Positions 14,413 through 49,194 of a stretch of 64,000 nucleotides of DNA are shown in pieces; the stretch's first letter is position 1; every line of letters begins with the position of its first letter. The translations under genes and the position numbers were made by a program. Source of the DNA: Candidatus Nitrosocosmicus sp. (GTDB lineage: Archaea; Thermoproteota; Nitrososphaeria; Nitrososphaerales; Nitrososphaeraceae); NCBI GenBank assembly GCA_031177355.1, contig JAPSGR010000003.1:1-64000 (forward strand). The letters are read 5' to 3'. The notes under the pieces were generated by a model, which did no database searches, was not told the DNA's origin, and saw nothing but the letters and a program-made list of their open reading frames with translations.

Positions 14413-15273
14413 TTAACTTAAAGGTGAATGAAAGACTGAATCAATCCTAACTATTTTATTATTAGGCAGTTGCTCCAAGTCTTTTACTAATACAGATCCA
14501 TCATCATTTACTCTAACGATTTCTCCTTTGAATTCGTAATCATTTATTCTAAACTTGTAGCTTAAATCTGATAACGATTCTTCGATCCTTCTTCTGTATG
14601 TATGCCTTAATTCGTTCCTATACAGTTTTTGGTTTAATTTGTGAATAAGTTCACTAAACTTGTATAAAATAAAGTAAACTAATTCAGAATTATTAATTTC
14701 CGATCCGCCATTGACAGACTTGAGGGTCGTAATTTTTATTTCTCCTGCTGTTTTATCCCAAATTTTATTTTTAGTAACTACAAGGTCGTTGTTGGAATTA
14801 ATTCCTATACCCAGAGTTACTTTGGTCGGTTTACCATACTCAATTTCAGTATCCATGAGAATACCAGCGACCTTGCTTCCGTCAATTAAAAGGTCGTTAG
14901 GCCATTTGATTTGAGGAGTCATATGAATATGAGACTCGATAGCATCAGATATTATAAACGCCGTTAGAATCAACATGGAAAAAAGATCATTCGCTTCTAA
15001 ATCAGTTTCAAAGACCATTGACATCCAAACACCACCCTTAGGTGATACCCAGTTAGATCCTCTACGTCCTCGCCCTTTGGTTTGAATTTCGCTTAATACT
15101 AAATAAGGGTAACAAGTATCTGGATTCTTACTCAACTTATAAGCATAATCTTGGGTAGATACCAGTGAATCGAAAAAGTAAAACTCTTGAAAGATAAGTT
15201 CCCCGTTTGACTTGTTCAAGATATTATAGACAAATTCTAATTTTTGTATGTTTGAACATTGAATTTTAATCAT
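14413..15273 (-). CDS. birA: biotin--[acetyl-CoA-carboxylase] ligase
   Basis: A 286-residue enzyme that joins biotin to the carrier protein of acetyl-CoA/propionyl-CoA carboxylase, the CO2-fixing enzyme of the HP/HB cycle. The biotinyl-AMP site GRGRRG is at residues 67-72, followed by WVSPKGGVWMSM, and KWPNDLLIDGSKVAG near 124-138; a small SH3-like C-terminal domain follows. No N-terminal DNA-binding helix-turn-helix is seen, so it is a ligase only. It is the last gene of a close cluster, five bases after the UbiA gene. Confidence 0.93.
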   Translation of the reverse strand: MIKIQCSNIQKLEFVYNILNKSNGELIFQEFYFFDSLVSTQDYAYKLSKNPDTCYPYLVLSEIQTKGRGRRGSNWVSPKGGVWMSMVFETDLEANDLFSMLILTAFIISDAIESHIHMTPQIKWPNDLLIDGSKVAGILMDTEIEYGKPTKVTLGIGINSNNDLVVTKNKIWDKTAGEIKITTLKSVNGGSEINNSELVYFILYKFSELIHKLNQKLYRNELRHTYRRRIEESLSDLSYKFRINDYEFKGEIVRVNDDGSVLVKDLEQLPNNKIVRIDSVFHSPLS

Positions 15274-29267: not shown

Positions 29268-30854
29268 TTAAAAAGATATCTTTGGGACATAAGCACCAAA
29301 TACTTCTTTGAATGCAGAATTTATCTCTCCAAGAGTTACCTTCTCCTTCACAGCAGAGATAATAAACGGCATCAGGTTTGTATCTTGCTTATCGGCTGCG
29401 GCAGTTAGTTTTGAAATTTGGTGTTGGACTTTGATGTTGTCCCTATTCAACTTAAACTCTTTTAGTCTATTGATTTGCTTGATTTCAAGCTGAGGGTCCA
29501 CTATGGCCAACTTAGGTTCCACATTTTTCTGATCCCTGAATTTGTTTACACCTACAATAGTCCTTTCACCAGTATCAACCTCTTTCTTCAGATTATAAGC
29601 ATTTTTTCTGATCTCTTCTTGAAAAAAGTTTCGCTCAATGGCTGCTAGAGCTCCACCCATCTTGTCTATTCGATTCAGATATTCATTTACGCCATCTACT
29701 ATCTGTTCTGTCAAATATTCAACATAATAGGAGCCTGCAAGGGGATCTACGGTCTTAGTAACACCGGTCTCATACGCGATTACTTGTTGAGTCCTCAAAG
29801 CAATTTTTACGGATTCCTCCGTTGGAAGTGCTAACGCCTCATCCCGTGAATTTGTATGTAAAGATTGACATCCGCCTAAGACCGCTGCTAATGCCTCAGT
29901 TGTTACCCTAACTATATTATTATCAACTTGTTGAGCAGTCAATGATTCACCACTAGTCTGTACATGAAACCTCAAATGAGAAGATTTTGGATCTTTAGAT
30001 CCATATCGTTCTTTAATGATCCTCGAATAAATCACTCTTGCTGCCCTAAATTTGGCAATTTCTTCAAAGAATTCCATGGTACAACAGAAGAAAAATGAAA
30101 GTCTTGGTGCAAAGCTATCAATGTCTAAACCTCTACTGACACAGGTGTTTATATATTCAATTGCGTCTGCAAAGGTAAAGGCTAATTCCTGGATTGCATT
30201 TGATCCAGCCTCTCTGATGTGATATCCAGAGATACTTATAGGATAAAATTGTGGAACATTTGTTGAACAGTATTGGATCATGTCTCCTATTAATCGGAGA
30301 GACGGTCTAGGAGGATAAATATAGGTATTTCTAGAATGATATTCTTTTAATATATCGTTTTGTGTTGTACCCCTAATTTGTGATGCAGATACACCCTGAG
30401 ATTCGGCAACAGAGATATACAACGATAGTAGTGTAGCCGCTGTTGAATTTATGGTCATAGATGTACTTACTTTGTCGAGTGGGATATCCTTAAAACAAGT
30501 CATCATATCTTCGATCGAACTAATTGCAACACCTGTTCTTCCTACCTCACCCTCAGACTGACTGTTATCTGAATCTCTTCCAGTTTGAGTGGGCAAGTCA
30601 AATGCCAAAGACAAGCCTGTTTGCCCATGCTCAAGGAGGAATTTAAACCTATTATTAGTTTCTTCAGCACTACCAAATCCACTATATTGTCTCATAGTCC
30701 AATGTCGCTCCCGATACATGGTCGGATAAATACCTCTCAAAAACGGGTAGGTGCCTGGTTCAGATTCAAATTCCTTCTTGATGTCTTCTGATTTGTAGAA
30801 TCTTTTTACTGGTATATTTGAATCGGTTTTGATCAATTTTTGTTCGTCAGTCAT
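29268..30854 (-). CDS. mutA: methylmalonyl-CoA mutase, large (catalytic) subunit
   Basis: A 528-residue TIM-barrel subunit of the adenosylcobalamin mutase that interconverts methylmalonyl-CoA and succinyl-CoA, a step of the HP/HB cycle. The substrate-entry motif RGIYPTMYRERHWTMRQYSG is conserved. The Tyr of RQY (Tyr57) corresponds to Tyr89 of the bacterial enzyme, the residue said to separate methylmalonyl- from isobutyryl- and 2-hydroxyisobutyryl-CoA mutases. The B12-binding domain is absent and must be a separate subunit, as usual in archaea; it is not in this window. MeaB precedes it by six bases. Confidence 0.92.
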   Translation of the reverse strand: MTDEQKLIKTDSNIPVKRFYKSEDIKKEFESEPGTYPFLRGIYPTMYRERHWTMRQYSGFGSAEETNNRFKFLLEHGQTGLSLAFDLPTQTGRDSDNSQSEGEVGRTGVAISSIEDMMTCFKDIPLDKVSTSMTINSTAATLLSLYISVAESQGVSASQIRGTTQNDILKEYHSRNTYIYPPRPSLRLIGDMIQYCSTNVPQFYPISISGYHIREAGSNAIQELAFTFADAIEYINTCVSRGLDIDSFAPRLSFFFCCTMEFFEEIAKFRAARVIYSRIIKERYGSKDPKSSHLRFHVQTSGESLTAQQVDNNIVRVTTEALAAVLGGCQSLHTNSRDEALALPTEESVKIALRTQQVIAYETGVTKTVDPLAGSYYVEYLTEQIVDGVNEYLNRIDKMGGALAAIERNFFQEEIRKNAYNLKKEVDTGERTIVGVNKFRDQKNVEPKLAIVDPQLEIKQINRLKEFKLNRDNIKVQHQISKLTAAADKQDTNLMPFIISAVKEKVTLGEINSAFKEVFGAYVPKISF

Positions 30855-30860
30855 AAGTTA

Positions 30861-31799
30861 TCATTTGCCATGAAATATTAATAAAGATAATTCTTCTGCG
30901 GCCGTATATGGATCAATTTTTTTTTCTATTATGGAATTTATTAACAGAGAAATCTTTTCACTTTGTGAACTCATAATCTGTAGTGACCTATTTTTCACCT
31001 CTTCTATAACCATTACCTTAAGTTCGGTCTCTAGGTCATATCGCTGCTTATTCTTTCGATTTTCAATCCATTTGTCTGTTTTAATTAAATCATTTAATTT
31101 ATTTGAAAATTCTTCTAATCCCTCACCTGTATTTGCGGATACTTTGAAAACGAGTGGATTACGAGGTGACTCTCCAATGAGATCTAACAGTGTTAAATAC
31201 AAAGTATTTGATCCTTCTAGATCCGCTTTATTGACCAAATATATATCTCCTATTTCTGTCAAACCCGCCTTCACGGCTTGTACATTATCGCCAGTATTTG
31301 GATTAAAAATCACTATTGTTAAATTTACTACTTTCGATATTTCCACCTCCAATTGACCTGCTCCCACGCTTTCTACCAAGATGAGGTCATATCCTGCAGC
31401 ATCCAATATTCTGATAACATTTCGTAGTGATTTTGAAATACCCCCTTGTGCCCCTCTTGATCCTAAACTTCTCATAAATAAATCGTCATCATTCATAGTA
31501 GTGGGCATCCTAACCCTATCACCTAGGATAGCACCGCCGGTTATAGGACTTGTAGGATCGACAGCTAAAATAGCTATTTTCATACCAAAATTTTTGAAGT
31601 ATGGTATCAATTTTCCTATTAGAGTACTCTTGCCTGCTCCAGCGGGACCAGTAAATCCAATTGTAACGGCCTTTCCGGTTTTCGGATATATTTTTTTCAA
31701 GATATCATGAGCCAAGGGGTCTTCATTGTCAATTTTTGAAATTGTCTGTGCTATTATACGTTTATTTTTAGCTAATATTCCCTCTACGATAGCATCCAC
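30861..31799 (-). CDS. meaB: MeaB/ArgK-type GTPase, mutase chaperone
   Basis: A 312-residue G3E-class GTPase that protects and reloads methylmalonyl-CoA mutase with cobalamin. The P-loop GFTGPAGAGKST (residues 48-59), the metal-site LAVDPTSP, the VESVGAGQ switch and the NKAD guanine motif are all present. It is immediately upstream of the mutase (six-base gap), the standard pairing, so a shared transcript is expected. The start is near TTG/ATG 31799. Confidence 0.95.
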   Translation of the reverse strand: MDAIVEGILAKNKRIIAQTISKIDNEDPLAHDILKKIYPKTGKAVTIGFTGPAGAGKSTLIGKLIPYFKNFGMKIAILAVDPTSPITGGAILGDRVRMPTTMNDDDLFMRSLGSRGAQGGISKSLRNVIRILDAAGYDLILVESVGAGQLEVEISKVVNLTIVIFNPNTGDNVQAVKAGLTEIGDIYLVNKADLEGSNTLYLTLLDLIGESPRNPLVFKVSANTGEGLEEFSNKLNDLIKTDKWIENRKNKQRYDLETELKVMVIEEVKNRSLQIMSSQSEKISLLINSIIEKKIDPYTAAEELSLLIFHGK

Positions 31800-31879: not shown

Positions 31880-32650
31880 TCATTCAACAAAGAGGTCGTC
31901 TTTTTCATTTCGAATCAAGATACTAATATCTATTTTATTTTCCGGATCAGATTCAATTAGTTGATAGGGATAGCCTCTCACAATTGCGACAGGAATTTGT
32001 AATGTTTTTCCCATAACCAGTTCTGCTGCAGAGGCAATCTCATCAGCCACCGCGATTTCAGTTACCTTTAGCTTCCTCCCAAATATATCCGGCGTTCCTA
32101 TATAGCTTTTCAACGGATTTATACCCGATATCCCTATTGCTACATTCGTCTGACCGTTTCTAAAGGGTCTACCAAAGGTATCGCAAATAATTACCGATAC
32201 TTTTCTCCTAGCCAATTGAAAAATACTTTTTCTTATATTTCTCGCCGAGCGGTCTGGATTTTTAGGCAAAAGTAAAGCGTGTCTAGGATTATTTGAGACA
32301 TTACTTTGATCTATTCCGGCATTTGCACAAATAAACCCATGTTTGGTTTGAGTGATCAAATGCTTCTGGGTAACTCTTATGACTTTTCTAGATTCATCTA
32401 GAATAAGCTGTATCAGTCTAGGATCTTTATCATGGACTGTAGCAAATTTTAGTGCTCGGGTAGAGGGAATCACACTATCTATATCAATCATCCTCGTTTC
32501 AGCTTTTGAAATTATTTTCTGAGCAATTACCAGTATATCAAATTCCTCTAAATTCAATTTCGACAATTTGATAGAATCAATAATGGTCTTTGAAATATTC
32601 GCACCTGGTTCAATTTCACCATTGATTGGTACAGGAATGATGGATAACAA
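31880..32650 (-). CDS. cofE: coenzyme F420-0:L-glutamate ligase
   Basis: A 256-residue GTP-dependent ligase adding glutamates to F420-0. Recognised by the family N-terminus (IIPVPINGEIEPGANIS), AQKIISKAETR, HGFICANAGIDQSNV, ICDTFGRPFRNGQTNVAIG and the C-terminal ELVMGKTLQIPVAIVRGY. Length matches archaeal CofE. F420 in this organism would serve enzymes such as the LLM-class oxidoreductase at 46.1-47.2 kb. It lies 80 bases upstream of meaB on the same strand and 28 bases downstream of a HAD phosphatase. Confidence 0.95.
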   Translation of the reverse strand: MLSIIPVPINGEIEPGANISKTIIDSIKLSKLNLEEFDILVIAQKIISKAETRMIDIDSVIPSTRALKFATVHDKDPRLIQLILDESRKVIRVTQKHLITQTKHGFICANAGIDQSNVSNNPRHALLLPKNPDRSARNIRKSIFQLARRKVSVIICDTFGRPFRNGQTNVAIGISGINPLKSYIGTPDIFGRKLKVTEIAVADEIASAAELVMGKTLQIPVAIVRGYPYQLIESDPENKIDISILIRNEKDDLFVE

Positions 32651-46133: not shown

Positions 46134-47213
46134 TCATTTTTGCAAATTATTAAAGTAAGGAACTACTTTGTTACCAAACGTCTCAATATTCTTATACAAG
46201 CCCTCTCCCCAAAATCTTATTATAAAGTGATTGGTACCTGCTTTAATGAACCTTTCTAACATTTCAATTACATCGTCTGGACTCCCAACTCCAATAGCCG
46301 TGCGGGCAACGTCGTCTGGAATTTGTAATGAGGCTTTTTTCATTTGTTCCATTAACTCTGGTTTATTCATTGCGTATTCGGTAAAGTATCTTCTGAAATC
46401 AAATTCCGAATCTTGTTGAATGTTATGTACTTTCAAAAGCTCAGGTTTGTACAAACTTACTTTCACAGCATTTTTCATTTTTTCCCATGCTGTTTCGCCA
46501 TCTTCTGTAAAATAAACATCTACGTCGTTAGCAAATTCAAAATTCGATATATCTCGCCCTAATCTTTTGGCGTGATCTTTAATTACATTCGCATGGTTTT
46601 CAAAGAGAGCTGGCGTATAACCAATCGGAATCCAACCGTCTCCATATGTAGCACACAACTCTAAGGTCTTCGGCGCTCCGGCTGCGATATATACTGGCGG
46701 GCGAGGTTTTCTAATTGGTTTTGCCTGCAAACAGGCTTCGATAAGTTTGTAATACTTTCCATCATAGTTAACTCGGTTATCAGGAGTAGAGTCAAATAGC
46801 TTTTCAATAACTTCAAGTTGTTCCTTGAATTTGGTTACAGGCTTGCTAAACTCGATACCAAAATCGACAACATTTTGAGCCTCCCCAGCACCAATTCCTA
46901 ATATTCCTCTGCCTTTGGTTATACGATCAAGAGTTACCGTGGATAATGCGATGGTAGACGGGTGCCTCCTTATTGCATCTGTTACACATGTGCCTAATTC
47001 CACCTTCTCTGTAACTGCTCCTATAGCAGTTAAGATTAACCAAGCGTCGTTTACAACAGCATTTTTCCATTGCGGCACATTTGTATGATCCATAGCCCAT
47101 ACAGAGTCAAAATTAGTTCTATCAGCAATTTGCGCTGCAGTAATGACTTGTGTTTCATCTAAACCTAATCTCGCGACGTTTAATCCAAAAGTCAGTCCAA
47201 ACTTAATCTTCAC
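46134..47213 (-). CDS. LLM-class F420-dependent oxidoreductase (Mer-like)
   Basis: A 359-residue (beta/alpha)8 flavin-type enzyme. GLTFGLNVARLGLDETQV and WAMDHTNVPQW open the barrel, followed by ELGTCVTDAIRRHPSTIALS, RGILGIGAGEAQNV and the late VGSPDDVIEMLERFIKAG. These are typical of F420-dependent methylenetetrahydromethanopterin reductase relatives and glucose-6-phosphate dehydrogenases of the luciferase class. The presence of cofE supports F420 use. The role could be one-carbon metabolism or oxidation of another substrate. Confidence 0.85.
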   Translation of the reverse strand: MKIKFGLTFGLNVARLGLDETQVITAAQIADRTNFDSVWAMDHTNVPQWKNAVVNDAWLILTAIGAVTEKVELGTCVTDAIRRHPSTIALSTVTLDRITKGRGILGIGAGEAQNVVDFGIEFSKPVTKFKEQLEVIEKLFDSTPDNRVNYDGKYYKLIEACLQAKPIRKPRPPVYIAAGAPKTLELCATYGDGWIPIGYTPALFENHANVIKDHAKRLGRDISNFEFANDVDVYFTEDGETAWEKMKNAVKVSLYKPELLKVHNIQQDSEFDFRRYFTEYAMNKPELMEQMKKASLQIPDDVARTAIGVGSPDDVIEMLERFIKAGTNHFIIRFWGEGLYKNIETFGNKVVPYFNNLQK

Positions 47214-47418: not shown

Positions 47419-49194
47419 ATGAATGATATTGGTAAGACAATACTTGTTACCGGCAGTGGTACAGGAATCGGGCAAGCAATAGCGAGAAAATTTGCAAAGT
47501 CTGGGTATAATTTAATCATATTAGGAAGAAGAAAAGAACCATTAATCGAGGCATCAACTATTCTCAACCAAATAATAGATGAAGGTAAATTCAACTCAAA
47601 AGTAAGATACTTTCCAGGCGTCGATGTCTCTGACTTGGATGGTCTTGTTTCAATGTATAGTACAATTAAAAGTGAATTAGGTCACATCGACATCATAGTT
47701 AATAACGCCGGCGTATCAGGTCCGGTCAAAGTTTTTACTAATTCAAGTTATCAAGATTTTAAGGATTGTGTATCCATTCACCTAAGTGGTACTTATTGGA
47801 CCAGCATAAAAGGGTTAGAAGTTCTCAGAAAATCCGGTAAGATAATAACTATTTCTACTTTTTTCACAGAAGAGAATAAGTTTGATCAAAGGCCATACAG
47901 ATTCAGGACTCCCTATACTGCAGCCCAGGGAGCTAAAAATCGATTATCTGAATGCTTGGCTTGGGAGTTGGTAGATCAAGGCATTTGTGCTCTTTCAACA
48001 AATCCTGGACCTGTTCATTCAGATAGAATATATAAAACCGTTTACCCGAAGGCCGCTGCAGAATTCTTAAGGGTTGGGGGATTTCCTGGTTTAACAAATA
48101 AGCAAGTTGAAGAAGTCTCATCTGCCTTGCTCCCGTTTCTAGGGGATGATGAAGACATAATAGAAGCTCAATCTATGCGAGTTGCTGAAAAGGTAGTAGA
48201 GCAAAACCCAAATTTAGATGTACTCGCAGTTCAAGATTTATCAAAAAGACTTTTACAAAAGATCCAAGAGATAGCCGAAAAAGTTCAAAACAATACCAAA
48301 AAAATGATAGTCGATAACGAATTTTTGTCACAGGATGACGTTGCCCAAATGGTATTCAATCTGTCGGATGAAAAAATAAGTAAATTGTTGAATGGAAAAG
48401 TAATACCCAATGACAGGGTTTTTTACCCCGTAAAACCAATCATCGAGCGAAAGATAAGCTATGACCCCACAAAGAATCTCGAGCATAAAGTTATACTAAT
48501 AACTACCACGGCATCCGCAAAAGAAAATTTAACTGAAATCATGGAATTAGCTACGATAATCAAAGACAGGAATGTTAAACAATTGATAGTGTTGACCCAT
48601 AAGAATGAAATATCACAAGAGGCAAATGATTTATTTAAGGACTTTCATCATCACAATTTAGACCTTTCAAATGAAGAATCCGTAAAAAAAATATTTAACA
48701 CAATTAATTCTCGTTATGGTAAAATAGATTCAACTTTTCATTTTACGGGTTCTTATAATTACGAAAAGAAATTTACAGAATTAAGTCCAGGAGAATGGAA
48801 CAGGATGGTCGAGGAGTTCATCAATATACCCCATTTAATTGCCAGAGAATCAGTTTTATCTATGGCATCTCGAAAGGCAATCGACGACCCTCAATTATTC
48901 AGACAATCAAAAGGAAACATTGTCATAATAGGGCCTCACGCACCCATCGGGAATAAAATTTCAGGGCTTGTAAGAGCAAGATCAGAGGTGTTTAGAGGGG
49001 CATTACGACCATATGTGACTACTGCAAACCAAGAACTTCATGATGTATTACAATCTCAAATTAATTTGACATTGATCTTTCAGGGAAACGTCAACGGTGA
49101 TGCATTGGATTCAAAAAGATTGCAAGATACTCTGATATCTTTAGGATCACAGGAAGACTTTAAAAATAATTTAATTTGTTATATCGACGAATAG
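47419..49194 (+). CDS. tandem-SDR protein related to malonyl-CoA reductase halves
   Basis: A 591-residue protein with two Rossmann-like SDR domains. Domain 1 (about 1-260) has TGSGTGIG (11-18), NNAG (95-98), Ser146 and Tyr166, but the catalytic Lys position is Gln170 (YTAAQ). The PGPVHSDRIYKTVYP segment (197-211) recalls the PGPIESDRI segment of Chloroflexus malonyl-CoA reductase. Domain 2 (about 360-590) keeps the fold but has lost the glycine motif. The overall plan matches one half of that bifunctional enzyme. It could be the malonyl-CoA or malonic-semialdehyde reductase of the HP/HB cycle, a different acyl-CoA reductase, or a non-catalytic SDR. Divergent from the Mer-like gene. Confidence 0.72.
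   Translation: MNDIGKTILVTGSGTGIGQAIARKFAKSGYNLIILGRRKEPLIEASTILNQIIDEGKFNSKVRYFPGVDVSDLDGLVSMYSTIKSELGHIDIIVNNAGVSGPVKVFTNSSYQDFKDCVSIHLSGTYWTSIKGLEVLRKSGKIITISTFFTEENKFDQRPYRFRTPYTAAQGAKNRLSECLAWELVDQGICALSTNPGPVHSDRIYKTVYPKAAAEFLRVGGFPGLTNKQVEEVSSALLPFLGDDEDIIEAQSMRVAEKVVEQNPNLDVLAVQDLSKRLLQKIQEIAEKVQNNTKKMIVDNEFLSQDDVAQMVFNLSDEKISKLLNGKVIPNDRVFYPVKPIIERKISYDPTKNLEHKVILITTTASAKENLTEIMELATIIKDRNVKQLIVLTHKNEISQEANDLFKDFHHHNLDLSNEESVKKIFNTINSRYGKIDSTFHFTGSYNYEKKFTELSPGEWNRMVEEFINIPHLIARESVLSMASRKAIDDPQLFRQSKGNIVIIGPHAPIGNKISGLVRARSEVFRGALRPYVTTANQELHDVLQSQINLTLIFQGNVNGDALDSKRLQDTLISLGSQEDFKNNLICYIDE

Follow-up and report, generated by a model that had tools for sequence, protein, structure and literature searches.

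Which enzyme reduces malonyl-CoA in ammonia-oxidising archaea (AOA) is the question raised by a tandem-SDR gene in the genome of a Candidatus Nitrosocosmicus species. AOA count among the most abundant autotrophs of both ocean and soil, their CO2 fixation is, to our knowledge, the most energy-efficient aerobic route, and enzyme activities for all steps of their cycle were reportedly measured in extracts in work from 2014. The sequence-only reading of this locus had remarked that some reductase steps of the 3-hydroxypropionate/4-hydroxybutyrate (HP/HB) cycle were hard to assign, and the literature bears this out. In papers published between 2015 and 2020, neither malonyl-CoA reductase nor succinyl-CoA reductase had an identified gene in AOA (PMC4510362, PMC6038301, PMC6964070), as stated for both in the 2018 model paper (PMC6038301) and repeated for malonyl-CoA reductase in a 2020 paper (PMC6964070), and acryloyl-CoA reductase is likewise without an assigned gene (PMC6038301). 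Malonic semialdehyde reductase is reported to be Nmar_1110 (Otte 2015, cited in PMC4510362). No later identification of these reductase genes was found in the open-access literature, subscription papers lying mostly outside the search. We suggest that the tandem-SDR protein is probably the NADPH-dependent, CoA-acylating malonyl-CoA reductase (MCR) of the HP/HB cycle, built like the C-terminal half of MCR (MCR-C). Judging from its sequence and predicted structure, it is the strongest remaining candidate that we found for this step.

Gene and domain organization

The gene for this candidate malonyl-CoA (possibly also succinyl-CoA) reductase occupies positions 47419–49194 of the window, i.e. the whole stretch of 64,000 nucleotides that was analysed, on the forward (+) strand, as do all the features of the protein located below. 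It encodes 591 amino acids, and the coordinates and length initially read from the letters were recovered unchanged. The division of the protein into two SDR-like halves, also proposed at that stage, held as well. The first third of the protein is a clear classical SDR, with a Pfam match to adh_short (PF00106; 7.5e-38) covering residues 6–202 in two stretches, and the second half is weakly SDR-like by sequence, with a Rossmann-type order in the AlphaFold2 model. Searches of Pfam and NCBIfam with the whole protein returned generic SDR matches only and no named family. The first domain has the Rossmann fold and the TGxxxGxG motif of classical SDRs, the latter in the form of the dinucleotide-binding TGSGTGIG (residues 11–18; 47449–47472), which is nearly invariant in orthologues. 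The YxxxK motif is replaced with YTxxQ in every orthologue examined.

An insert of about 120 residues follows R203 and, in the model, forms about seven helices between approximately residues 202 and 324; it stands in the place of the extra domain of MCR-C (residues 204–324; 48028–48390; PMC10470521). The second SDR-fold domain (residues 358–591; 48490–49191) shows a full Rossmann-type alpha/beta order over residues 358–588 of the model and holds the conserved segment GPxxPxGxK...RARxEVFRGALRP. The loss of its glycine motif, noticed in the sequence-only reading, was evident in the orthologue alignment, in which residues 359–366 lack the motif and are variable. With phmmer, the second half alone yielded weak generic SDR matches only in the PDB, the best of them, at 8.5e-5, being an SDR.

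Fold and sequence similarity to malonyl-CoA reductase

The AlphaFold2 model, built from 54 sequences, had a mean pLDDT of 89.4 and a pTM of 0.91. In a Foldseek search of the PDB, ranks 1–25 were taken by MCR structures without exception, headed by the CoA-acylating C-terminal half, and the MCR-C matches had E values of about 1e-27 and TM scores by query of 0.70–0.75 over the full length. The next match was the fungal double SDR MFE-2 (peroxisomal multifunctional enzyme type 2, 2et6), with a TM score of 0.54 and an rmsd of 18.6 Angstrom; it shares with the AOA protein the presence of two SDR domains per chain, but differs in their arrangement. Single SDRs in the PDB reached a TM score of about 0.35. 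The structure comparison, which the initial reading had singled out as a check, thus placed MCR ahead of every non-acyl-CoA SDR. The full-length rmsd of the model to MCR was 7–9 Angstrom, so the domain angles differ from those of MCR.

In a phmmer search against all PDB sequences, the two full-length bifunctional MCRs were the best matches (1.1e-33 and 7.4e-31) and the C-terminal MCR constructs came next, ahead of every other SDR. However, a profile limited to the first domain gave a slightly higher score for the generic SDR 4iuy (88 bits) than for MCR-C (82 bits), so membership of the MCR family is not settled by sequence alone. No full-length relatives were found on plasmids and viral contigs, and a search of plasmids with an MCR-C fragment from the PDB as the query retrieved no full-length MCR.

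Within MCR, it is the MCR-C half with which the AOA protein is properly compared. The model has the architecture of MCR-C, with an SDR, a helical extra domain and a non-catalytic SDR, and the domain order is the same in the MCR-C structures from Roseiflexus castenholzii (8hi5), Chloroflexus aurantiacus (8a30/8j2c) and Porphyrobacter (6k8s), which provided the best full-length fold match. Identity in the full-length structural alignment is 15–17%. Unlike MCR-C, the AOA protein has Gln170 in place of Lys753, lacks a fused MCR-N half and has a shorter helical insert; the extra domain comprises eight helices in MCR-C and about seven in the AOA model, MCR-N having just two extra helices. MCR-N, the malonic semialdehyde reductase (8hi6, 8aew, 6k8v), resembles the AOA protein in its tandem SDR organization, dead second domain, YXXRXXY motif and Thr at the Ser position, with TM scores normalised by target of 0.72–0.77, but it keeps the Tyr–Lys pair and has a short loop before the motif.

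Active-site residues

In the MCR-C of Roseiflexus, S731, Y749, K753 and R799 are essential, and K753A abolished activity; the YXXRXXY motif (Y743, R746 and Y749) holds the malonate part of the substrate, the departing CoA receives its proton from the Y743–R746 pair, R785 contributes to CoA binding, and the adenosine of NADP is contacted by R616 and D651 (PMC10470521). The AOA protein was aligned with the MCR-C and MCR-N segments and with 11 control SDRs from AOA genomes. R616, D651, S731, Y743, R746, Y749 and R785 of MCR-C corresponded to R37, D69, T147, Y160, R163, Y166 and R203, respectively, each of which is invariant in the aligned AOA orthologues. R37 and R38 (47527–47532) follow strand 2, and T147 (47857–47859), at the position of the catalytic Ser731, is matched by Thr165 in MCR-N. 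The malonate-binding motif takes the form YRFRTPY (residues 160–166; 47896–47916). Its Y160, R163 and Y166, which include the Tyr–Arg proton-donor pair of MCR-C, are invariant in both orthologue alignments, and none of the 11 control SDRs has YXXRXXY. The extended loop between the Ser/Thr and this motif (residues 148–159; 47860–47895) is common to the AOA protein and MCR-C and is absent from MCR-N and from all controls but one (L005), the exception in loop length, which has an insertion of its own.

The segment PGPVHSDRIYKTVYP, to which the first reading had drawn attention, was located at residues 196–210 (48004–48048) and is almost invariant; it contains R203, the equivalent of the CoA-binding R785. 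Of the other CoA-binding arginines of MCR-C, R799 in the extra domain has no certain counterpart, an invariant R218 being found nearby, and the region of R1164, in the second SDR, did not align, the AOA protein having invariant R519 and R530.

The Lys residue normally has two roles in SDRs: it lowers the pKa of the Tyr so that an alcohol can form, and it binds the ribose of the nicotinamide. In the AOA protein, Thr147 and Tyr166 of the Ser731–Tyr749–Lys753 triad are present and the Lys is replaced with Gln170, as had been read from the sequence. Gln170, part of the resulting YTAAQ, is conserved without exception in the alignments of orthologues (27/27 and 54/54), and the motif PYRFR-PYT-Q-G-K, including Gln170, was found in all 79 named loci of a GTDB scan. 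K173, at the end of the Q170–K173 stretch (47926–47937), is also invariant in the 27 and in the 54 aligned orthologues from AOA families. The Lys-to-Gln change is the main doubt on the malonyl-CoA reductase reading. Because protonation of the thiolate is assigned to the Tyr743–Arg746 pair, the Lys may plausibly be dispensable in an enzyme that has to stop at the aldehyde; Gln may keep the ribose contact or K173 may reach in.

Replacement of a residue that most SDRs cannot do without, together with a degenerate second domain, might also suggest a catalytically dead or regulatory SDR, in which the fold was kept and activity lost. We consider this very improbable, since the cofactor motif, Thr147, Tyr160, Arg163, Tyr166 and the 195–211 segment are among the most strongly conserved positions of the protein across AOA families, a pattern that is rare in dead enzymes, and since functional MCR also contains a non-catalytic second SDR (PMC10470521).

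The sequence-only reading had left a choice between malonyl-CoA reductase and malonic-semialdehyde reductase. The YXXRXXY motif is common to MCR-N, which binds malonic semialdehyde, and the TM score normalised by target was highest for MCR-N 8hi6 (0.77), a shorter target; both observations would suit an alcohol-forming malonic- or succinic-semialdehyde reductase like MCR-N. Against this, the Tyr–Lys pair for alcohol formation, the Lys of which is needed by MCR-N, is broken by Gln170, the long Ser–Tyr loop and large helical insert are MCR-C-like rather than MCR-N-like, and malonic semialdehyde reduction is already attributed to Nmar_1110. A semialdehyde reductase is thus scarcely probable, and the best reading is that the AOA protein does not perform the second (semialdehyde) reduction. 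The original proposal is supported in part: its malonyl-CoA half came through the computational checks, namely the MCR-first fold search and the presence of the gene in practically all AOA, with the Lys-to-Gln change weighing against it, and its semialdehyde half is not supported.

Proposed reaction and its significance

From these similarities, we infer the following substrate, cofactor and mechanism for the putative AOA malonyl-CoA reductase. NADPH would be bound by the first SDR, through the glycine motif and R37/R38, the free carboxylate of malonyl-CoA would be gripped by YXXRXXY (Y160, R163 and Y166), and the CoA part would lie under the helical insert (R203 and its neighbours), against the second SDR. 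Hydride attack on the thioester carbonyl would then expel the CoA-thiolate, to be protonated by the Tyr–Arg pair, and malonic semialdehyde would be released to a separate iron-type reductase (Nmar_1110 type), the loss of the SDR Lys favouring a stop at the aldehyde. Succinyl-CoA, the substrate of the other unassigned step, may perhaps be reduced by the same enzyme.

The protein might instead be a succinyl-CoA rather than a malonyl-CoA reductase, with the same chemistry and fold and a pocket for the four-carbon acid. Succinyl-CoA reductase is equally without an assigned gene in AOA, YXXRXXY would hold any short dicarboxylyl-CoA, and the AOA protein, whose helical insert has about 30 residues fewer than the extra domain of MCR-C, differs from it in the pocket. 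This seems unlikely, as the closest matches by fold are without exception malonyl-CoA reductases and malonyl-CoA reduction would then be without a candidate, though one enzyme could serve both steps. We put forward only tentatively, as a possibility that we rather doubt, that a single SDR-fold enzyme lacking the Lys, with the Tyr–Arg pair and Gln as a new catalytic variant, reduces both malonyl-CoA and succinyl-CoA.

If the protein is indeed a malonyl-CoA reductase, reconstruction of the cycle in vitro becomes feasible, a disputed gene in metabolic models and marker sets would be replaced with the right one, and SDR enzymology would gain a thioester reductase without the canonical Lys. AOA and Chloroflexota would also share the same unusual double-SDR architecture for the same reaction. 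If one enzyme acts on both substrates, the gene gaps that remain would fall from four to two, and AOA would be using a bacterial-type MCR half, unlike Sulfolobales.

Distribution and inheritance

One full or near-full copy of the SDR gene was present in 215 of the 300 genomes of the class, all from families f1, f2, f3 and f5, and archaeal amoA was found in 201 genomes from the same four families. Comparison of the two genome lists by hand placed the SDR gene in 198 of the 201 amoA-positive genomes; the three lacking it (G185, G206 and G262) are all draft assemblies. In N. maritimus, a single copy lies at about 917,089–918,852 of the 1,645,259-bp chromosome. Presence across AOA had been named as a check on the initial proposal, and practically all of them carry the gene. 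A phylum-wide profile search detected it in 39 of 250 Thermoproteota genomes, all from AOA families, with no match in the non-AOA members of this sample. In a tree of 27 orthologues, each of the testable families (f1, f2 and f3) formed one group, indicating vertical inheritance. Published HP/HB genes have the same AOA-only pattern (PMC8287830), so the distribution fits an enzyme of the HP/HB cycle, short of proof, since many AOA core genes show this pattern.

Non-AOA relatives from family f4 (e.g. G096, G146 and G168) lack both amoA and the SDR gene, although they encode a protein of the HpaB/4-hydroxybutyryl-CoA dehydratase family. An SDR-like match at G044:C1:576091-576663 (-) falls within an open frame 13,569 codons in length, which is exceptional for a genome of 1.6 Mb.

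Competing enzyme families

The succinyl-CoA reductase of AOA assigned by KEGG is the Nmar_1608-type aldehyde dehydrogenase (K18601), an assignment called incorrect in a 2015 paper (PMC4510362). No aldehyde dehydrogenase family member exceeded the threshold in 17 AOA genomes carrying the SDR gene, including the single-contig assemblies G046, G066, G089 and G103, and these 17 genomes do carry the 4-hydroxybutyryl-CoA dehydratase family. An Nmar_1608-type enzyme is therefore not a general solution, and it was ruled out as the universal succinyl-CoA reductase.

The malonyl-CoA/succinyl-CoA reductase of Sulfolobales is of the aspartate-semialdehyde dehydrogenase type; it has the same proposed reaction and cycle as the AOA protein, but a different fold and family. 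Each AOA genome encodes two Semialdhyde_dhC proteins, which we take to be aspartate-semialdehyde dehydrogenase and an ArgC/LysY-type enzyme; amino-acid synthesis would be expected to call for this many. The Sulfolobales-type enzyme has been described as not homologous to that of AOA (PMC7845616).

Genomic neighbourhood

The window also contains genes for methylmalonyl-CoA mutase (MCM; 29268–30854), MeaB (30861–31799) and a biotin/lipoate ligase family protein (14413–15273), which the sequence-only reading had taken as functional context. These genes are present as stated, but they lie 16–34 kb from the SDR gene, and the neighbours conserved in other AOA, usual outside Nitrosocosmicus, are different: a PhoU-like gene, endA, homoserine dehydrogenase (hom) and a TauE-type transporter (tauE). 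The neighbourhood argument therefore weighs little and was set aside as functional evidence. No linkage of the SDR gene to other HP/HB genes was found in the genomic neighbourhoods examined.

In Nitrosopumilaceae, a protein of about 150 residues has its start at the SDR stop codon or only a few bases from it (L052:4531-4983 (-) and another 43 loci). The model of this protein resembles MaoC hot-dog proteins (1q6w, TM 0.73–0.75), a fold that typically binds or handles acyl thioesters, and a Pfam search assigned it to no family. The usual hydratase Asp/His motif of this protein looks altered (FSGIKN). No such protein was found near the SDR gene in AOA families other than Nitrosopumilaceae, so this neighbour is supportive only. 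It was rejected as a universal partner, being absent from the genome of the window as well as from many others, Nitrosocaldaceae-like ones included.

An acyl-thioester-handling neighbour immediately downstream could point to another CoA thioester as the substrate, for example in an acryloyl-CoA reductase, for which a gene is also missing, or in an enzyme acting on a non-cycle acyl-CoA. We regard this as quite improbable. Acryloyl-CoA has no free carboxylate and the conserved malonate-binding motif would therefore be left unexplained, and the MaoC-like neighbour, which occurs in some AOA only, is atypical in its active-site sequence.

The homologue of the MaoC-like protein in one Nitrososphaeraceae genome (G109:C1:1039864-1040311; L161 and L163) is broken by a TAG stop and a frame change and is located apart from the SDR gene. 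In Nitrosocosmicus, the SDR gene is adjoined by a gene for an F420-dependent Mer-like LLM oxidoreductase (46134–47213 of the window, reverse (-) strand), and the F420 ligase CofE is encoded at 31880–32650, beside MeaB and methylmalonyl-CoA mutase.
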